DNA of 64,000 nucleotides from Mucilaginibacter sp. L294 (GTDB lineage: Bacteria > Bacteroidota > Bacteroidia > Sphingobacteriales > Sphingobacteriaceae): assembly GCF_001636615.1 (NCBI RefSeq), contig NZ_LGEK01000013.1:1-64000 (forward strand). The letters run 5' to 3'. The notes below the pieces were generated by a model. The model was given only the letters and a program-made list of their open reading frames with translations. It did no database searches and was not told the DNA's origin. Made by a program: the position numbers and the translations under genes. Positions 861-62,205 of the stretch are shown here, piece after piece; positions within the stretch are counted from its first letter, which is position 1; each line of letters opens with the position of its first letter.

Positions 861-925
861 CATTTTTGGGATGATAGGTTAAAACTCATATTGCAACCGG
901 ATGATTTATGAGCGCGATTCGCCAC

Positions 926-995
926 GCCATGGTGAGCTTGTCGAACCATTAGTGAACAAGCCTAACGTTTAAGTCTTCGACAGGCTCAGACTGAC
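926..995. repeat. REP-like pair of facing hairpins
   Basis: The first arm has stem ATGGT (929-933) with ACCAT (945-949) around a GAGCTTGTCGA loop. The second has stem AGTC (972-975) with GACT (989-992) around TTCGACAGGCTCA and is followed by GAC. This is the same foot-plus-hairpin plan as the other palindromic repeats here, with different stem bases. Confidence 0.55.
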
Positions 996-1050
996 ATTAT
1001 AAAAGGGAAAGCCAACACAATATGTTGGCTTCTCTTTTTATATCCCAAAG

Positions 1051-1144
1051 CGTCATTGCGAGCGTAGCGTGGCAATCTTCGATAGAAAAGTTGGCTACAA
1101 GCATGTCGAAGATTGCCACGTCGCTATCGCTCCTCGCAATGACG
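1051..1144. repeat. 94-bp palindromic element, copy 1
   Basis: Outer ends CGTCATTGCGAG and CTCGCAATGACG face each other. Each arm folds on its own: ATTGC pairs with GCAAT within the arm. The centre (GATAGAAAAG...GCATGTCGAAG) matches the other two copies at 28821-28914 and 51863-51956 with few changes. All three are 94 bp; this one is inverted relative to the other two. Confidence 0.8.
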
Positions 1145-3361: not shown

Positions 3362-3511
3362 GAACAAGATTTCTCCTCGCTGTCGCTCGTTCGAAATGAC
3401 ATTTACCTCAACGCAGGGTTTTTTTTCGTCCCTGCGGGGTCTCTCGCAGAGGACCCTGCAGGGGAGTGCTACGCCAATGCAACGCAGGGTGCTTTTCAAG
3501 AGACCCTGCAG
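3362..3511. repeat. Solo REP-like arm plus GCAGGGT palindromes
   Basis: 3362-3400 is one arm of the family whose full pair is at 28955-29081: ATTTC pairs with GAAAT, followed by GAC. From 3402 on there are nested hairpins: CCCTGC with GCAGGG enclosing GGGTC with GACCC, then GCAGGGT with ACCCTGC. The last ends at the stop codon of the LytTR gene, so it may also serve as that operon's terminator. Confidence 0.6.
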
Positions 3512-13277: not shown

Positions 13278-14609
13278 CTACACCGCGTCAGACAGTGAGC
13301 TGAATGTAAAGTCCCTGATCTTCATTGGTGGGATCAGGTAGCTGCGATAGCTTTCTACGCTGATGCTGCGTTCCTGCTTGCCAAGGGCTTCCAGGTTGTT
13401 CAGCATAATTACCGGGCTCTCGTTAAACCTGAAGTTTTTTACCGGGAACATGATCTTACCATTCTCTATGTAAAACGTACCATCGCGGGTAAGGCCGGTT
13501 AACAGTAACGATTGCGGATCAACCATACGAATGTACCACAACCTGGAAACCAGTATACCTTTTTCGGTGCCTTTTATCAGTTCTTCGAGGGTTTGCGTGC
13601 CACCATCCATAATAATATTGCTTGGGTTTGGTACTGGTTTTACACCTTTCTTATCTGCCCAGTAGCGCGAGTATGAAAGATTTTTCACCACACCGTTTTC
13701 TATCCAGCTGGTTCTTTCGCGTGGCAAACCATCACCACCCCAGGTAGAACCCGGCAAGTCGGGATTGAACGGATCTGAATAGATATTTACTTTCGGGTCC
13801 ATCAACTGTTCGCCCAAACGTGTACCACCACCTTTTTTACTCAAAAAGCTACGTCCTTCTTCCGCGCTGCGCGCATCAAAACGGAACATATTTTCCAGCA
13901 TGTAGGTAGCCGCAACAGGCTCCAGTATCACGGTATATTTACCCGGCTCAATGGCTTTTGCACCTTTAGATGCATTGGCTTTCATGGTGGCTACCCGTGT
14001 TGCCGAGGCTGTATCCAGTTTTGACACATCGGTAAACCCGCGTGCCGCGTAACCGGAGATAGTACCCCCCGCATCGCGTGTAGTTACCGAGAAGGTAACA
14101 TCGCTGCTTTTGTTGTAGGCGAATAAACCCTTAGAGTTCATCACCGCGTTAAAACTGCTTGAGTTTTCTAAAAAGCCGGCTGCAAGCAGGTTGGCATCTT
14201 TGGTAACCTGTAAGCTCTTGCCAACCATTTCGGCACGGCTTTCGGGTGTCATGGCTGCCGTATTTGCATTGAAGGTTATTGAATCTTTAAATTCGCTCTG
14301 GCCAAGCATTGGCATGTATTCCGGGTTTTGGGGAGCAAACTGTGCCAGTTCTTCCGAGCGGCGTACAACACGTTCTAAAGCGGCATCGTCAAACTCATCA
14401 ATACTGGCCGAGCCTGCCTTTTTTCCATAAACAGAGGTTACTGCTAAACCCGTAGTGCTAACATCGCCCGCGGTAGAAACCGCGTTAAGCGCATACCTGA
14501 TATTGCCGCCTTCGTTTCCGAAAAGGCTCACTTCGCACTCATCGGCCTTTGAATAGCTAAGCACTTTCTTTAATAAAGCCTGTGCTTGTTCTTTTGTATA
14601 TAAAGCCAT
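13278..14609 (-). CDS. TldE/PmbA-like partner subunit, copy 1
   Basis: A 443-residue TldE/PmbA-family protein. It lacks the HExxxH metal motif of its partner, as TldE does, and has no signal peptide (start MALYTKEQAQALLKKVLSYS). In Escherichia coli, TldD and TldE form one heterodimeric metalloprotease that trims the microcin B17 leader and degrades unfolded peptides such as CcdA. The gene follows tldD by 3 bp. It is closely similar along its length to the second copy at 27408-28745 (shared AIEPGKYTVILEPAA-type, LDARSADEGRSFLSK-type and PPMRIRDFTFSSLSDAV-type stretches). Confidence 0.9.
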   Translation of the reverse strand: MALYTKEQAQALLKKVLSYSKADECEVSLFGNEGGNIRYALNAVSTAGDVSTTGLAVTSVYGKKAGSASIDEFDDAALERVVRRSEELAQFAPQNPEYMPMLGQSEFKDSITFNANTAAMTPESRAEMVGKSLQVTKDANLLAAGFLENSSSFNAVMNSKGLFAYNKSSDVTFSVTTRDAGGTISGYAARGFTDVSKLDTASATRVATMKANASKGAKAIEPGKYTVILEPVAATYMLENMFRFDARSAEEGRSFLSKKGGGTRLGEQLMDPKVNIYSDPFNPDLPGSTWGGDGLPRERTSWIENGVVKNLSYSRYWADKKGVKPVPNPSNIIMDGGTQTLEELIKGTEKGILVSRLWYIRMVDPQSLLLTGLTRDGTFYIENGKIMFPVKNFRFNESPVIMLNNLEALGKQERSISVESYRSYLIPPMKIRDFTFSSLSDAV

Positions 14610-14612
14610 ATG

Positions 14613-16250
14613 TTATCCGATCTTTCTTTTTGTGTTAATTACATTAACACCGTTAAACCTTGTTGTTGATGAACCGTGAGATACCGCGCTGCTTTGGCTT
14701 GGCTGGCCCTTACCATCATTGAACGAGCCGCCTAAACGGTAATCGCTTGCATCACAAACCTGTGTGCACGAGTTCCAGAACTCCTGGGTATTGGCCTGGT
14801 AAGCTACATCATTTAGCATACCGGCAATTTTACCATCTTTTATCTCATAAAACAGCTGCCCGCCAAACTGGAAGTTGTAGCGTTGCTGATCGATAGAGAA
14901 AGAGCCGTCGCCAATGATGTAGATGCCTTTTTCAACGTTCTTGATCATGTTATCTACACTCAGCGGTGTTTTGCCCGGCTCTAACGATACGTTTGGCATA
15001 CGCTGGAACTGTACATCCTGCCAGCTTTGCGCATAGCAGCAGCCCTGCGATTCTTTCAGGCCTATAATATGCGCCTGATCGCGGATGGCCTGGTAATTTA
15101 CCAGTGTACCTTCTTTAATGATATCCCATTTTTTGGTACCAACACCTTCATCATCATAACCTACAGCACCAAGCGAACCTACCTGGGTTTTATCGCCTAC
15201 CACATTTACCTGCTTGCTACCAAAATTGAACTTACCCGATTTCCATTTATCCAACGTTAAGAAACTGGTACCGGCATAGTTGGCTTCATAGCCCAATACG
15301 CGGTCAAGCTCAGTTGGGTGCCCTACAGACTCGTGGATAGTTAACCAAAGGTGGCTTGGATCAAGCACCAGGTCATACTTACCCGGATCTACCGATTTAG
15401 CAGTTATTTTTTCTGCCGCTTGTTTGGTGGCAAATTTCATATCCTCCAGTATGTCATAACGCTTTTTGTAACGAGGAGTGATACCGGCAATAGTTTCAGA
15501 TGCCATTGGCGTTAGGTATTCATAACCCATACCAACCGGCGAGCTTATAGAACGACGGGTTTGGAAAGAGTTTGAAGCCGAATCGATTTTTGTAACTGTA
15601 AATGATGGGAACAGGCGGTGAATATCCTGATCGATGTATGAACCATCGGTAGAAGCAAAATACTTTTGCTCGTTCACCGCAAATATCATCGAGTTTACAA
15701 AGTTAGCCCCTCCGCTTATAGCCGCTGCATTAGCGCCAAGCAACAGGTCAACCTTTTCTTTGATAGGTACTTCGAAGGCACTTTTTTCTATTGGGGTTTT
15801 CCAGCTTACCTCGCCGTAACCCTTTTGTGGTGCAAGCTGTACCGGGGCGCTGCCCAGTTTGGCATTAGCCTTTGCCACAGCCACTGCGCGTTTGGCAACT
15901 TTAGCAATTCCTTCCTTGGTTACATCATTAGTAGCGGCAAAGCCCCAGCAGCCATCCGCAATTACGCGGATCCCTACGCCATACGATTCGGTATTGGCCA
16001 CATTTTGCACCCGGTTTTCGCGGGTAATAACAAACTGGTTAAGGTAGCGGCCTATGCGCACATCTGCGTAGCTGGCACCGGCAGATTTGGCGGCATTAAG
16101 CCCTGCATCTGCCAACTGTTTTTTTATGCGCACATCAACGCCTTCAAGCGCCTGCTGCACATCAATGTTTTTACCGAAACTGTTTAATGACGGGAGCACC
16201 ATGGCCCCGGCACCAACTCCGGTTAAAAAAATAAAATCTCGTCTTCTCAA
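14613..16250 (-). CDS. TldD-like metalloprotease subunit with twin-arginine leader, copy 1
   Basis: A 545-residue TldD-family protein, the catalytic partner of TldE. The zinc motif HESVGH is at residues 306-311 and a conserved Cys region (CTQVCD, C495/C499) could give the third ligand known in TldD. Unlike Escherichia coli TldD it begins MRRRDFIFLTGVGAGAMVLPS, a twin-arginine-type leader with a hydrophobic core, which predicts export of the folded protein or membrane anchoring. It is the sixth gene of the moxR operon. It is so similar to 25769-27403 that the two align by eye almost without gaps. Confidence 0.9.
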   Translation of the reverse strand: MRRRDFIFLTGVGAGAMVLPSLNSFGKNIDVQQALEGVDVRIKKQLADAGLNAAKSAGASYADVRIGRYLNQFVITRENRVQNVANTESYGVGIRVIADGCWGFAATNDVTKEGIAKVAKRAVAVAKANAKLGSAPVQLAPQKGYGEVSWKTPIEKSAFEVPIKEKVDLLLGANAAAISGGANFVNSMIFAVNEQKYFASTDGSYIDQDIHRLFPSFTVTKIDSASNSFQTRRSISSPVGMGYEYLTPMASETIAGITPRYKKRYDILEDMKFATKQAAEKITAKSVDPGKYDLVLDPSHLWLTIHESVGHPTELDRVLGYEANYAGTSFLTLDKWKSGKFNFGSKQVNVVGDKTQVGSLGAVGYDDEGVGTKKWDIIKEGTLVNYQAIRDQAHIIGLKESQGCCYAQSWQDVQFQRMPNVSLEPGKTPLSVDNMIKNVEKGIYIIGDGSFSIDQQRYNFQFGGQLFYEIKDGKIAGMLNDVAYQANTQEFWNSCTQVCDASDYRLGGSFNDGKGQPSQSSAVSHGSSTTRFNGVNVINTKRKIG

Positions 16251-25768: not shown

Positions 25769-27403
25769 TTGAAAAGAAAAGATTTCCTTTACCTTACGGG
25801 CATGGGCATAAGTGCTTCCATGCTTAGCCAGTTTACGGCGCTTGGTTCGCCGGTTGTAGCAGGCACTCGTATGCGGGATGTTGATGTAACCATTAAAAAA
25901 CGGATGAGCGATGTAGCCCTTAACGCTGCACGCGCAAAAGGCGCTACCTACACTGATGTACGCCTGGGCCGTTACCTTAATGAGTTTGTAGTAACCCGCG
26001 ACAAAAACATCGAAAACATTGTAGATACCGAATCTTACGGGATGGGTATCCGTGTTATTGCAAATGGCTGCTGGGGCTTTGCCGCAACAGATAAGCTTGA
26101 TAACGACAGCATTGCACGCGCTGCCGAACTTGCCGTAGCCATAGCCAAAGAAAACTCGCGCATACAAGCCGAACCGGTGCAGCTTGCACCACAAAAAGGT
26201 TACGGCGAAGTAAGCTGGAAAACACCTATTGAGCGTAATGCTTTTGAGGTGCCGATGAAAGAAAAAACCGACCTGTTACTATCTGTTAACGATGCTGCCT
26301 TTAAAAATGGCGCTAACTACGTTAACTCGGTACTGTTTATGGTGAATGAGCAAAAATACTTTGCATCAACAGATGGTTCATACATTGACCAGGACATTCA
26401 TCGTATATGGCCGGTATTTGGTGTTACCAAAATTGACGAGAAAAGCGGCAAGTTTGAAACCCGTGCTTCGTTAAGCGCGCCACGCGGAATGGGGTATGAA
26501 TACCTGATGCCACGCGAAAGCGACAAAATAAAAAGCCAGACCACGCTTTACCGCGACCGTTACGATATGCTGGAAGATGCCGGCGCTGCTGCATTGCAAG
26601 CCGCCGAGAAACTGAAGGCAAAATCTGTTGAGCCGGGTAAATACGACCTGGTGCTTGACCCAAGCCACCTGTGGTTAACCATCCACGAGTCTGTTGGCCA
26701 CCCATCAGAACTTGACCGTGTACTGGGCTACGAAGCTAACTTTGCCGGTACCAGTTTCCTTACTTTAGATAAGTGGAAAACAGGCAAGTTTAACTTTGGC
26801 AGCAAAAACGTAAACATTGTAGCCGATAAATTACAGCCGGGTTCGCTTGGTGCTGTAGGTTATGATGATGAAGGCGTTGGTACCAAAAAATGGGATATTA
26901 TTAAAGATGGTATACTGGTAAATTACCAGGCCATCCGCGACCAGGCGCACATCATCGGCTTAAAAGAGTCGCAAGGATGCTGTTACTCGCAAAGCTGGCG
27001 CGATGTACAGTTCCAGCGCATGCCAAACATATCACTGCAACCGGGCAAGGAAAAACTTTCTCCGGCAGATATGATCAAAAATGTGGAAAAAGGTATCTAC
27101 ATCATCGGCGACAGTTCTTTCTCTATCGATCAGCAACGTTATAACTTCCAGTTTAGCGGGCAGCTTTATTATGAGATAAAAGAGGGCAAGGTAGTAGGCA
27201 TGTTAAATGATGTGGCTTACCAGGCCAATACCCAGGAGTTCTGGAACTCCTGCGCGGCAGTTTGCGATAAAGACGACTACCGCTTAGGTGGCTCATTCTT
27301 TGATGGTAAAGGCCAGCCTATGCAATCAAGCGCGGTATCGCACGGTTCATCAACAGCCCGTTTTAACGGGGTTAACGTAATTAACACAGCAAGAAAAATT
27401 TAA
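25769..27403 (+). CDS. TldD-like metalloprotease subunit, copy 2
   Basis: A 544-residue TldD-family protein, a close paralogue of 14613-16250. It has the same HESVGH zinc motif in LTIHESVGHPSELDR and the same DDEGVGTKKWDIIK and SQGCCYSQSWRDVQF stretches. The start is TTG at 25769; the first in-frame ATG (25802) would cut off the leader. The leader reads MKRKDFLYLTGMGISASML: the copy-1 RRR is KRK here, so a strict twin-arginine motif is missing, though a KR pair can work in some Tat signals. It forms an operon with the TldE copy 4 bp downstream. Confidence 0.9.
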   Translation: MKRKDFLYLTGMGISASMLSQFTALGSPVVAGTRMRDVDVTIKKRMSDVALNAARAKGATYTDVRLGRYLNEFVVTRDKNIENIVDTESYGMGIRVIANGCWGFAATDKLDNDSIARAAELAVAIAKENSRIQAEPVQLAPQKGYGEVSWKTPIERNAFEVPMKEKTDLLLSVNDAAFKNGANYVNSVLFMVNEQKYFASTDGSYIDQDIHRIWPVFGVTKIDEKSGKFETRASLSAPRGMGYEYLMPRESDKIKSQTTLYRDRYDMLEDAGAAALQAAEKLKAKSVEPGKYDLVLDPSHLWLTIHESVGHPSELDRVLGYEANFAGTSFLTLDKWKTGKFNFGSKNVNIVADKLQPGSLGAVGYDDEGVGTKKWDIIKDGILVNYQAIRDQAHIIGLKESQGCCYSQSWRDVQFQRMPNISLQPGKEKLSPADMIKNVEKGIYIIGDSSFSIDQQRYNFQFSGQLYYEIKEGKVVGMLNDVAYQANTQEFWNSCAAVCDKDDYRLGGSFFDGKGQPMQSSAVSHGSSTARFNGVNVINTARKI

Positions 27404-27407
27404 ACAT

Positions 27408-28745
27408 ATGGCTATTTTAACTGAAGATGAATGCCGCGCTATCATGAAGAAAGCGCTCAGCTATTCAAAAGCCGACGAATGCGAAATAAACCTGAACGGA
27501 TCTGACTCGGCTAATATAAGGTACGCCCGCAACTCGGTATCAACAAGTGGTGCTATAAGCAGTACCAGCATGGCCATATCATCGGCATTTGGTAAAAAGT
27601 TAGGGGTTATAACCCTTAATGATTACACTGATGAAGCGATTGCTGCTGCTGTAAAAAAATCGGAAGAGCTGGCGCAGCTGGCACCCGAAAACCCGGAATA
27701 TATGCCAATGCTTGGCCCACAAAGCTACGGCCCATCCGGCCAAACCTTTGTACCTGCAACAGCAGCTTTAACACCGGCACAGCGTACCACCATGGTTGCC
27801 GATAGCTTGCAAATAGCGAAAGATAATAAGCTTACCGCTGCCGGCTTTTTAGAAAGCGGCGCGGGTTTCAGCGCTATGATGAACTCCAAGGGTTTATTTG
27901 CGTACAATAAATCTACCGATATCAACTTTTCGGTAACCTTACGTACTGCAGATAGCCAGGGATCGGGCTATGCCACTAAAGATTATAATGATGTTGCTAA
28001 AATGGACGCGGTTAGCTTTACCAAAAGGGCGGCGTTAAAAGCAACTGGCTCAAACGGTGCTAAAGCTATTGAGCCCGGTAAATACACCGTGATATTGGAG
28101 CCTGCAGCAGGTATTGTACTGCTTGAGCAACTTTACGGCAGCCTTGACGCGCGCAGCGCCGACGAAGGCCGTAGCTTTTTAAGCAAACCAGGCGGTAAAA
28201 CCCGCCTTGGCGAAAAACTGGTTGACGAACGCGTAAATATCTATTCAGACCCTACCCACCCTGATCTTCCTGCAAGTTCATGGTCTGGCGATGGCCAGCC
28301 GCTGGGCAAAATGAGCTGGATTGAAAAAGGCGTTGTTAAAAATTTCAGCTACTCCCGTTATTGGGCGCAAAAGAAAGGTGTAAAACCTGTTCCCGGCCCT
28401 GCTAACATTATTATGGAAGGCGGCACCCAAACCTTAGAAGAATTGATAAAAGGCACCGAAAAAGGCATATTGGTAACCCGCCTGTGGTACATACGCCCGG
28501 TTGACCCGCAAACGCTATTGTACACCGGCCTAACCCGCGATGGTACGTTTTATATAGAGAACGGACAGATCAAGTTCCCTATTAAAAACTTAAGGTTTAA
28601 CGAGAGCCCGGTTATTATGCTGAACAACCTGGATGCCCTTGGCAAACAGGAACGCACCGTAAGCGGCGAAAGCAGCCAAAGCGCCCTGATACCGCCAATG
28701 CGTATAAGGGACTTTACGTTTAGCTCGCTTTCTGACGCTGTTTAA
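27408..28745 (+). CDS. TldE/PmbA-like partner subunit, copy 2
   Basis: A 445-residue TldE-type protein, a paralogue of 13278-14609 with the same start region (LSYSKADECEINL), LDARSADEGRSFLSK and C-terminus PPMRIRDFTFSSLSDAV. No HExxxH and no signal peptide, as in TldE. It should form a heterodimer with the TldD encoded 4 bp upstream. If TldD is exported by Tat, this subunit could only follow as a passenger in a folded complex. A strong bidirectional terminator follows at 28761. Confidence 0.9.
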   Translation: MAILTEDECRAIMKKALSYSKADECEINLNGSDSANIRYARNSVSTSGAISSTSMAISSAFGKKLGVITLNDYTDEAIAAAVKKSEELAQLAPENPEYMPMLGPQSYGPSGQTFVPATAALTPAQRTTMVADSLQIAKDNKLTAAGFLESGAGFSAMMNSKGLFAYNKSTDINFSVTLRTADSQGSGYATKDYNDVAKMDAVSFTKRAALKATGSNGAKAIEPGKYTVILEPAAGIVLLEQLYGSLDARSADEGRSFLSKPGGKTRLGEKLVDERVNIYSDPTHPDLPASSWSGDGQPLGKMSWIEKGVVKNFSYSRYWAQKKGVKPVPGPANIIMEGGTQTLEELIKGTEKGILVTRLWYIRPVDPQTLLYTGLTRDGTFYIENGQIKFPIKNLRFNESPVIMLNNLDALGKQERTVSGESSQSALIPPMRIRDFTFSSLSDAV

Positions 28746-28760
28746 TCAGTTTGCAGTAAG

Positions 28761-28807
28761 AGAAATAAAAAAAGCGATGAGTTTTACTCATCGCTTTTTT
28801 TATTTCT
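28761..28807. terminator. Bidirectional terminator
   Basis: GCGATGAG (28774-28781) pairs with CTCATCGC (28787-28794), with seven A before and seven T after; the outer AGAAATA and TATTTCT also pair. It ends the tldD-tldE copy 2 transcript and can stop transcripts from the other side. Confidence 0.9.
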
Positions 28808-28820
28808 CATTTTTTCCACG

Positions 28821-28914
28821 CGTCATTGCGAGGAGCGATAGCGACGTGGCAATCTTCGACATGCTTATCGCCGACCTTTCTATCGAAGATTGCCACGCTA
28901 CGCTCGCAATGACG
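28821..28914. repeat. 94-bp palindromic element, copy 2
   Basis: Begins CGTCATTGCGAGGAGCG and ends CGCTCGCAATGACG. Each arm is a hairpin of its own with stem ATTGC/GCAAT. It is the reverse-complement form of 1051-1144, with only a few differences in the centre. Confidence 0.8.
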
Positions 28915-28954
28915 GGGTTTTAACTATTCCGGTTAACACCCCTCTTTTATTCAA

Positions 28955-29081
28955 CCTGTCATTTCGAATGAGCATGTGTGGGCATGTGAAAAGGCGCGAA
29001 GAGAAATCTTGTTCGAATGACAGGTGGCGAACATTGCATGATGAACAAGATTTCTCCTCGTACCTCGTTCGAAATGACAGG
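28955..29081. repeat. REP-like pair with ATTTC/GAAAT stems
   Basis: The outer ends CCTGTCATTTCGAA and TTCGAAATGACAGG face each other. In both arms ATTTC pairs with GAAAT, where the 94-bp element has ATTGC and GCAAT, and the foot GTC or GAC is kept. A single arm of this family lies at 3362-3400. Confidence 0.75.
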
Positions 29082-51862: not shown

Positions 51863-51956
51863 CGTCATTGCGAGGAGCGATAGCGACGTGGCAATCTTCG
51901 ACTCGCTTGTAGCCGACTTTTCTATCGAAGATTGCCACGCTGCGCTCGCAATGGCG
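51863..51956. repeat. 94-bp palindromic element, copy 3
   Basis: Same length and orientation as 28821-28914: CGTCATTGCGAGGAGCG at the left, GCGCTCGCAATGGCG at the right (one change, A to G, in the terminal GACG). Each arm has stem ATTGC/GCAAT. Confidence 0.8.
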
Positions 51957-54636: not shown

Positions 54637-54754
54637 CTTTGGTCGAAGACTTAAAAGCTTTGCAAACTCGGCCAATGATTCTACAAGCTCACCATGACAA
54701 CAAGTACCGTAAATATAATAATTTAAGATGTAGAAATACTTTTTAAAAAAATTT

Positions 54755-56589: not shown

Positions 56590-56670
56590 TTGTCATGCTG
56601 AACGATCTTTCAGCATCTATTCGCCAATAGCACAGTTTGTGAATAGATCCTTCGATCCTCTGGATGACAA
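56590..56670. repeat. REP-like pair with ATGCTGA and ATCC stems
   Basis: Left arm TTGTC, then ATGCTGA pairing with TCAGCAT, then CTATTC. Right arm GAATAG, then ATCC pairing with GGAT, then GACAA. The foot GTC/GAC is the same as in the other repeat families while the stem bases differ but still pair. Confidence 0.75.
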
Positions 56671-61923: not shown

Positions 61924-62205
61924 GCGTTGTATAGATATGAGATGTTAGATCTGAGATTTGAGACTCAGATCCTATTCTTATAGTTTGCGAAATTAACAAA
62001 CCTGCTCTAAAGGTAAAAGTTTATAGTGGATAATTAACAATAATTAACGCCTAACTACCAAACCGTCATTGCGAGGTACGAAGCAATCTCCTGACTTTGC
62101 ATCGCCGCTTAGCATGTGAAGAGATTGCTTCGTACCTCGCAATGACGCGTGGATTTGTAGTGGTAAGGAAGGAAACAAAACGCTATACTTACCTGTTATT
62201 CAATC
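61924..62205. other. Divergent gap between ftsX and a small plus-strand gene
   Basis: About 280 bp that holds GATGTTAGATCTGAGATTTGAG words (61946-61975), an AT-rich stretch and an 84-bp palindromic element (62064-62147). Promoters for both genes must lie here; I cannot place them exactly. Confidence 0.5.
62064..62147. repeat. 84-bp palindromic element with perfect 27-bp arms
   Basis: The arms 62064-62090 and 62121-62147 are exact inverted copies (CGTCATTGCGAGGTACG... and ...CGTACCTCGCAATGACG). Each arm has stem ATTGC/GCAAT as in the 94-bp element, but the inner loop sequence differs (GAGGTACGAA). Confidence 0.85.

Follow-up and report, generated by a model that had tools for sequence, protein, structure and literature searches.

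CGTC-tagged REP doublets of Mucilaginibacter and their very likely association with stand-alone GIY-YIG nuclease genes

CGTC-tagged REPs were described in 2013 by Di Nocera, De Gregorio and Rocco from five phyla, including Bacteroidetes (PMC3733652). According to the excerpts of that paper used here, the stems of these repeats undergo complementary changes, the repeats form head-to-head dimers, and they were concluded to be without a dedicated transposase. The same excerpts give a stem of 8-9 bp with AT at the first two positions and a loop of 4-5, by counting rules that may differ from ours. The repeats occur in many bacteria (Rickettsia, Wolbachia, Neisseria, rhizobia) and have been listed without a dedicated enzyme since 2013. 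As judged from the same excerpts, the Mucilaginibacter repeats analyzed in this study are CGTC/TGTC-tagged REP doublets. The original prediction, which proposed a superfamily of hairpin repeats on a common GTC foot, was thus not new, because the idea had been published in 2013 as CGTC-tagged REPs (PMC3733652, as excerpted). For the repeat sequence itself, the open-access literature yielded no relevant paper.

We analyzed a stretch of 64,000 nucleotides (the window), which is contig C2 of the 5.25-Mb genome of Mucilaginibacter sp. L294 (G000). The hairpin repeats predicted from its letters are real; every named site was present when the sequence was read (Table 1). These comprised four ATTGC/GCAAT dimers, a dimer and a solo copy of ATTTC/GAAAT, ATGCT paired with an ATCC-type arm, and ATGGT (foot GCC) facing AGTCT. 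Both elements of the last pair contained GA...GA and a YTGTC loop. Folding of the entire ATTGC dimer at 28821 gave a single long hairpin (-31.8 kcal/mol, z -8.5). It was missing from the orthologous site in Mucilaginibacter rigui (G044), the closest relative among the genomes fetched for comparison with G000, and a related ATTTC copy was observed there at the site of the neighboring ATTTC dimer. The sub-type of the dimer at 62064 also flanks a GIY-YIG gene elsewhere in the genome (G000:C111:50003-50221). Rfam gave no match within the window.

Table 1. Repeat elements read in the 64,000-nucleotide window
Element	Position	Strand	Basis
Facing pair: ATGGT (foot CGCC, + strand from 925) and AGTCT (foot TGTC, - strand from 996)	925..996		sequence read
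CGTC-ATTGC head-to-head dimer, inner arms unequal	1051..1144		sequence read
TGTC-ATTTC solo element	3369..3401	-	sequence read
CGTC-ATTGC head-to-head dimer	28821..28914		sequence read and folding
TGTC-ATTTC head-to-head dimer, degenerate left arm	28957..29079		sequence read
CGTC-ATTGC head-to-head dimer, right foot now CGCC	51863..51956		sequence read
ATGGT solo element, degenerate, TGTC foot	54674..54699	-	sequence read
Hetero-dimer: ATGCT left arm, ATCC-type right arm	56591..56669		sequence read
CGTC-ATTGC head-to-head dimer, both arms GAGGTACGAA sub-type	62064..62147		sequence read

Two other features of the window were noted beside the repeats. A perfect 23-bp inverted repeat (28760-28808) follows a gene ending at 28745 and directly precedes the dimer at 28821; it is kept in M. 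rigui and is probably a terminator. Two adjacent genes are present as an inverted, diverged duplicate (13278-16250 and 25769-28745), 73-83% identical and approximately 10 kb apart.

Next, the foot was analyzed by scanning for 5-bp stems with 9-18 nt between the arms and counting all 64 preceding trinucleotides. As predicted, a single common foot emerged: GTC ranked first of the 64, with 238 occurrences against 110 expected (z 12.2), in 0.81 Mb of G000, a sample of which part was fetched for containing GTCATTGCGAG (ATTGC family), while TGTC families were not so selected. The tetranucleotides that stood out in this sample were TGTC (z 14.5), CGTC (z 9.4) and A-runs. The same scan with 6-bp stems gave no signal because a GA/GA mismatch interrupts the stem after 5 bp. 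When [CT]GTC-N5-GA...GA-N5 was searched in 1.07 Mb of G000 without requiring pairing, 72 of 295 matches paired fully, compared to a shuffled mean of 10.5 and maximum of 18; with the feet ATC, GAC, TTC, GTG, CTC and GCC, only 0-3 did. The unpaired tag is thus CGTC/TGTC, other feet being at background. GTCATTGCGAG had 160 matches in G000 and its reversed pattern had none.

The resulting plan begins with an unpaired YGTC foot and five outer pairs that usually start with AT. The 5' arm then has GA, in most cases opposed by GA in the 3' arm, and an inner hairpin of 1-3 pairs encloses a loop that is mostly of the GNA or GNNA form and otherwise YTGT. The REP/BIME-like arrangement in several families therefore holds, foot, hairpin and facing copies included, and two fixed parts that had been overlooked are added to it, namely the tandem GA/GA mismatch inside the outer stem and the small inner hairpin. 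Counted in this way, the stem is 5 bp plus GA/GA plus 1-3 bp, and the loop is mostly 3-5 nt. The large families ATTGC, ATTTC, ATGCT and ATCCT start with AT; AGTCT and ACTGC depart from this. Tails were CTT, CTA, CTC and TAG; the mostly-CCA tail of the published repeats was not found here, the CCA type being confined to alphaproteobacterial relatives. GNA and GNNA loops on two G-C pairs form extraordinarily stable DNA mini-hairpins (PMC4686876), which would fit folding of the repeats as single-stranded DNA. By single-strand DNA folding, isolated hairpins were weak (-1.6 to -3.7 kcal/mol, from an energy model that we do not rely on), and only the whole dimer was clearly above shuffles.

In total, 71 facing pairs were found. 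The elements are mostly head-to-head, intergenic and downstream of genes, and the doublets are mostly formed within a family (29 ATTGC-ATTGC and 13 ATTTC-ATTTC). Among the dimers found there were also 17 ATCCT-ATGCT pairs and no ATCCT-ATCCT pair. In another genome of the set, GTCACTCAGAGCG... copies are repeated regularly in the same orientation, with a larger period near 4.9 kb (G106:C48:86827-96725).

Covariation was examined by pattern searches that leave stem bases free. The compensatory stem changes claimed from the window proved strong, both genus-wide and phylum-wide. For 61 Mucilaginibacter genomes, TGTCATNCTGA...GAAGNATCT was searched with one stem pair (N/N') free; among the 150 matches listed, the free pair was kept in 145 (56 expected) and the inner pair in 146 (74 expected), these figures being counts of sequences and not of independent events. 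For 118 genomes of the phylum, GTCNNNNNGAGCGNAGCGANNNNNC returned 55 distinct sequences with 50 double-changed cells, again counted as sequences, against 12.8 after shuffling; none of 500 shuffles reached this value, and slid controls gave at most 14.

An unbiased screen of open reading frames was then made for those lying between repeats. Of 1043 frames, 12 did so, and two of these were small GIY-YIG nucleases. Of the five GIY-YIG genes in G000, one encodes UvrC and one a 463-aa protein, and the other three are stand-alone genes outside the window (C1:96746, C111:50003 and C261:7282). All three stand-alone genes lie between facing repeats, each with one sub-type on both sides (ATTTC; ATTGC-GAGCGATAGCGTG; ATTGC-GAGGTACGAA), and no flanking repeats were found at UvrC and the 463-aa gene. 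We applied a strict test to the genus, for which repeats must face in on both sides within 250 bp. As a result, 21 of 33 stand-alone GIY-YIG loci passed, 14 of them with the same outer stem, compared to 8 of 876 control frames, one of which is itself a GIY-YIG gene (Fisher p about 1e-28). None of the other controls passed on both sides (0/123 RAYT loci, 0/30 class-1.2 TnpA loci, 0/9 long, UvrC-type GIY-YIG genes). Some of the 12 failing loci of the genus are cut contigs or have degenerate repeats; L274 was scored one-sided because its upstream copies are 180-266 bp away. In other Bacteroidota, 5 of 21 loci passed, and several more with degenerate copies were seen by eye. Two genomes (G003 and G007) have small GIY-YIG matches but no GTCATTGCGAG.

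At four loci, one in the genus (L304) and three outside it (L313, L318, L335), the gene stands just behind a tRNA gene whose 3' half is repeated on the far side; these four genes look as if they had integrated there. A fifth, also outside the genus (L317), is probably likewise flanked by tRNA pieces instead of repeats. The stand-alone proteins scored above the cut-off of PF01541, and the catalytic residues Y4, Y15, G17, R25 and E63 were present in 43 of 43 nucleases, with N82 in 98%. Across 49 genomes, the number of nucleases correlated with that of repeat copies when genome size was controlled (partial rho 0.35, p 0.014). The stand-alone GIY-YIG nucleases are thus very likely associated with CGTC REPs. 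No earlier report joining GIY-YIG with REP or non-autonomous elements was found in the open-access literature; one may exist elsewhere.

The same arrangement was observed beyond the phylum, in Alphaproteobacteria and a cyanobacterium, as well as in other Bacteroidota. When plasmids were searched by tblastn with the protein of L275, the matches included many taxa that are CGTC-positive in the 2013 survey, as far as its excerpted text goes (PMC3733652). We read 14 plasmid-borne GIY-YIG loci, one per organism, and in nine the species' own CGTC REP faces in from both sides (Novosphingobium aromaticivorans, Azospirillum lipoferum, Sinorhizobium meliloti, Sphingobium, Shinella, Rhizobium, Neorhizobium, Planktothrix and Spirosoma), the right foot in S. 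meliloti carrying an additional base. Two more loci, from Neisseria gonorrhoeae and Aeromonas caviae, are flanked on either side by repeats that are oriented differently, and the remaining three of the 14 loci had no repeats.

Repeat family and nuclease clade vary together. On a tree of 43 nucleases, repeat family changed 14 times, compared to 28.2 times with shuffled labels (0/200), in a test that near relatives favor and for which about eight labels were assigned by eye. At L275, the left and the right end of the gene-bearing copy each match one half of gene-less dimers, a match that includes the spacer, and the short dimers resemble a nuclease-bearing element that has lost its interior. The whole block is also present or absent among close relatives. 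In A. lipoferum, the nuclease gene and two doublets lie between sufB and sufC, where A. ramasamyi, A. oryzae and strain B510, 95-97% identical to it at this locus, have 87-129 bp with no gene and no repeats. The junctions are not clean to the base and the flanks have diverged, so that neither a target duplication nor an exact end is readable; between G000 and its nearest relative, intergenic regions are too diverged for clean empty sites.

From these observations we propose, as the reading that we hold to be probable, that the repeats are the gene-less version of a mobile element, which when complete has a stand-alone GIY-YIG gene between two facing hairpins, and that the nuclease reads, cuts and spreads them. 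The GIY-YIG protein would recognize the folded, mismatch-bearing hairpin with its GTC foot, either as single-stranded DNA on the lagging strand or as a cruciform, and would cut there. Repair would then copy the doublet into new intergenic sites. Cleavage at the GTC foot, the ensuing copying and spread, and the form of DNA recognized are inferred. Action of the nuclease on the many gene-less copies would be in trans, in the way supposed for RAYTs and GTAG REPs. In its wider form the proposal is still somewhat favored: CGTC REPs would be one half of a previously unrecognized mobile element of Bacteroidota, Pseudomonadota and Cyanobacteriota, powered by a stand-alone GIY-YIG nuclease for which the YGTC foot next to a hairpin with mismatches is the signal. 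The element would operate alongside the RAYT/GTAG REP system and independently of it, with enzyme and hairpin families co-evolving.

The original prediction had instead supposed that RAYT (Y1/HUH) transposases read the GTC foot and mobilize the doublets in trans, to which we now assign a very small probability. A genome-wide search did find four RAYT genes in G000, and NGTC-foot hairpins, some with a GC[GNA]GC core, stood at 14 of 32 Mucilaginibacter RAYT loci compared to 2 of 32 distal control regions. However, the four RAYT genes of G000 are flanked by other hairpins. Of the 123 RAYT loci, drawn from this genus and the phylum and sampled as genus, phylum and a fourth sub-group, none lay between facing CGTC repeats and four had one on one side; all three samples showed other flanking hairpins, the RAYTs' own, and RAYT was rejected as the cognate enzyme. 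The co-occurrence of Y1/RAYT with copy number vanished once genome size was controlled (partial rho 0.19 between RAYT number and repeat copy number, n.s., 49 genomes), and repeats persist in genomes without a Y1/RAYT match, such as G060 with 43 copies. A kinship of the foot at some RAYT hairpins is possible, and RAYTs may have a secondary role given the 14 loci with NGTC feet. Among these hairpins, double-foot NGTC...GAC forms accompany RAYT genes at L003, L155, L166, L173, L213 and L243, several with the GC[GNA]GC core of the CGTC repeats. A further RAYT sub-group (PNHIH ... YIHxNP; L254-L273) is flanked by long hairpins of the TTGTTGGTG...CACCAACAA or a similar type. Subclass-1.2 TnpA, which has been listed as without REP (PMC6006769), was likewise rejected as the cognate enzyme; its 30 loci had their own hairpins and no CGTC repeats. 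In Mucilaginibacter, subclass-1.2-like TnpA genes (DHxH ... YIxNQ; L124-L152) are often flanked by a GTAGCTCC-TAC-GGAGCA hairpin family.

Three further explanations concern what the pairing and the gene placement mean. The covariation might be unselected, in that template switching or the spread of whole families makes the arms alike and pairing follows from the copying. Copies within a family are near-identical, and many cells are therefore not independent events. Nevertheless, several bases occur at the free position across many genomes while pairing is kept, the fixed GA/GA and the loop recur with distinct stems in different genera, and template switching would also have erased the tandem mismatches, which stay; we consider this explanation very unlikely. 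Strong stem pairing and placement could also point to host elements (terminators, stabilizers of mRNA 3' ends, or supercoiling sites) kept by selection on the fold and without mobility of their own, since 139 of the 168 elements are intergenic, and convergent gaps, which make up 22% of gaps, contain 74 elements, against only 7 for divergent gaps, which make up 26%. Promoter avoidance alone accounts for that placement, however, and copy number ranges from 0 to about 580 within the one genus, repeat sites differ between close relatives, and a T-G wobble at the free pair is rare (1 of the 150 matches listed in the genus), unlike what selection on RNA would leave. A pure host function is accordingly extremely improbable. 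The main rival to spread by the nuclease is that GIY-YIG genes are homing-type guests inserting in or beside REP doublets, the repeats being a landing site spread by something else. GIY-YIG enzymes are classic homing endonucleases. Some small ones are instead placed within tRNA genes, the end of the tRNA being duplicated (L304, L313 and L335), so that palindromic sites of another kind are within reach of the family; REPs are also a known target of insertion sequences (PMC8450116). Homing would fill empty dimers, yet G000 has three gene-bearing copies and some 160 GTCATTGCGAG matches, and the flanking sub-types match on both sides of the gene and follow the nuclease tree, which makes homing unlikely in our view.

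Spread by the nuclease thus remains our preferred reading. A conserved partner nuclease with intact active-site residues is the first testable candidate for spreading CGTC-tagged REPs. If the proposal is true, a nuclease fold not known in this role would join those that drive REP-type elements, and the many small GIY-YIG genes annotated only by domain would have a purpose.

Compared with known systems, the nucleases share with GIY-YIG homing endonucleases and the stand-alone UPF0213 family (PDB 1ZG2, to which similarity was marginal, E 0.08) a catalytic domain with conserved Y, Y, G, R, E and N. Unlike these, they are about 100 aa long with no added DNA-binding domain found, and the gene lies not in an intron or intein but between hairpin repeats that are otherwise dispersed gene-less. 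As in MITEs with an autonomous partner, short non-autonomous copies share their ends with a longer gene-bearing copy, as observed at L275; however, there is no DDE transposase, the ends are hairpins with an unpaired foot, and no target-site duplication is defined. The GTAG REPs with RAYT (REPtron/REPIN) are similar in their tagged hairpins and doublets, in having few enzyme genes and many gene-less copies, and in that each enzyme is flanked by its own repeat family; they differ in that the foot here is YGTC and not GTAG (GT[AG]G) and the enzyme is GIY-YIG rather than Y1/HUH. The repeats are also close to the CGTC-tagged REPs, including RPE-4/RPE-6 of Rickettsia and dRS3 of Neisseria, which, in the excerpted text (PMC3733652), share the CGTC/TGTC tag, apparently the AT start of the stem in most families, complementary stem changes, head-to-head homo- and hetero-dimers, intergenic placement on the 3' side of genes, and occurrence in Bacteroidetes and Alphaproteobacteria. 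In contrast to the CCA tail given there, the tail here is CTT, CTA or TAG, and the fixed tandem GA/GA mismatch and the inner GNA/GNNA hairpin set our repeats apart. Whereas that text reports no transposase association, a nuclease gene lies between facing copies here.
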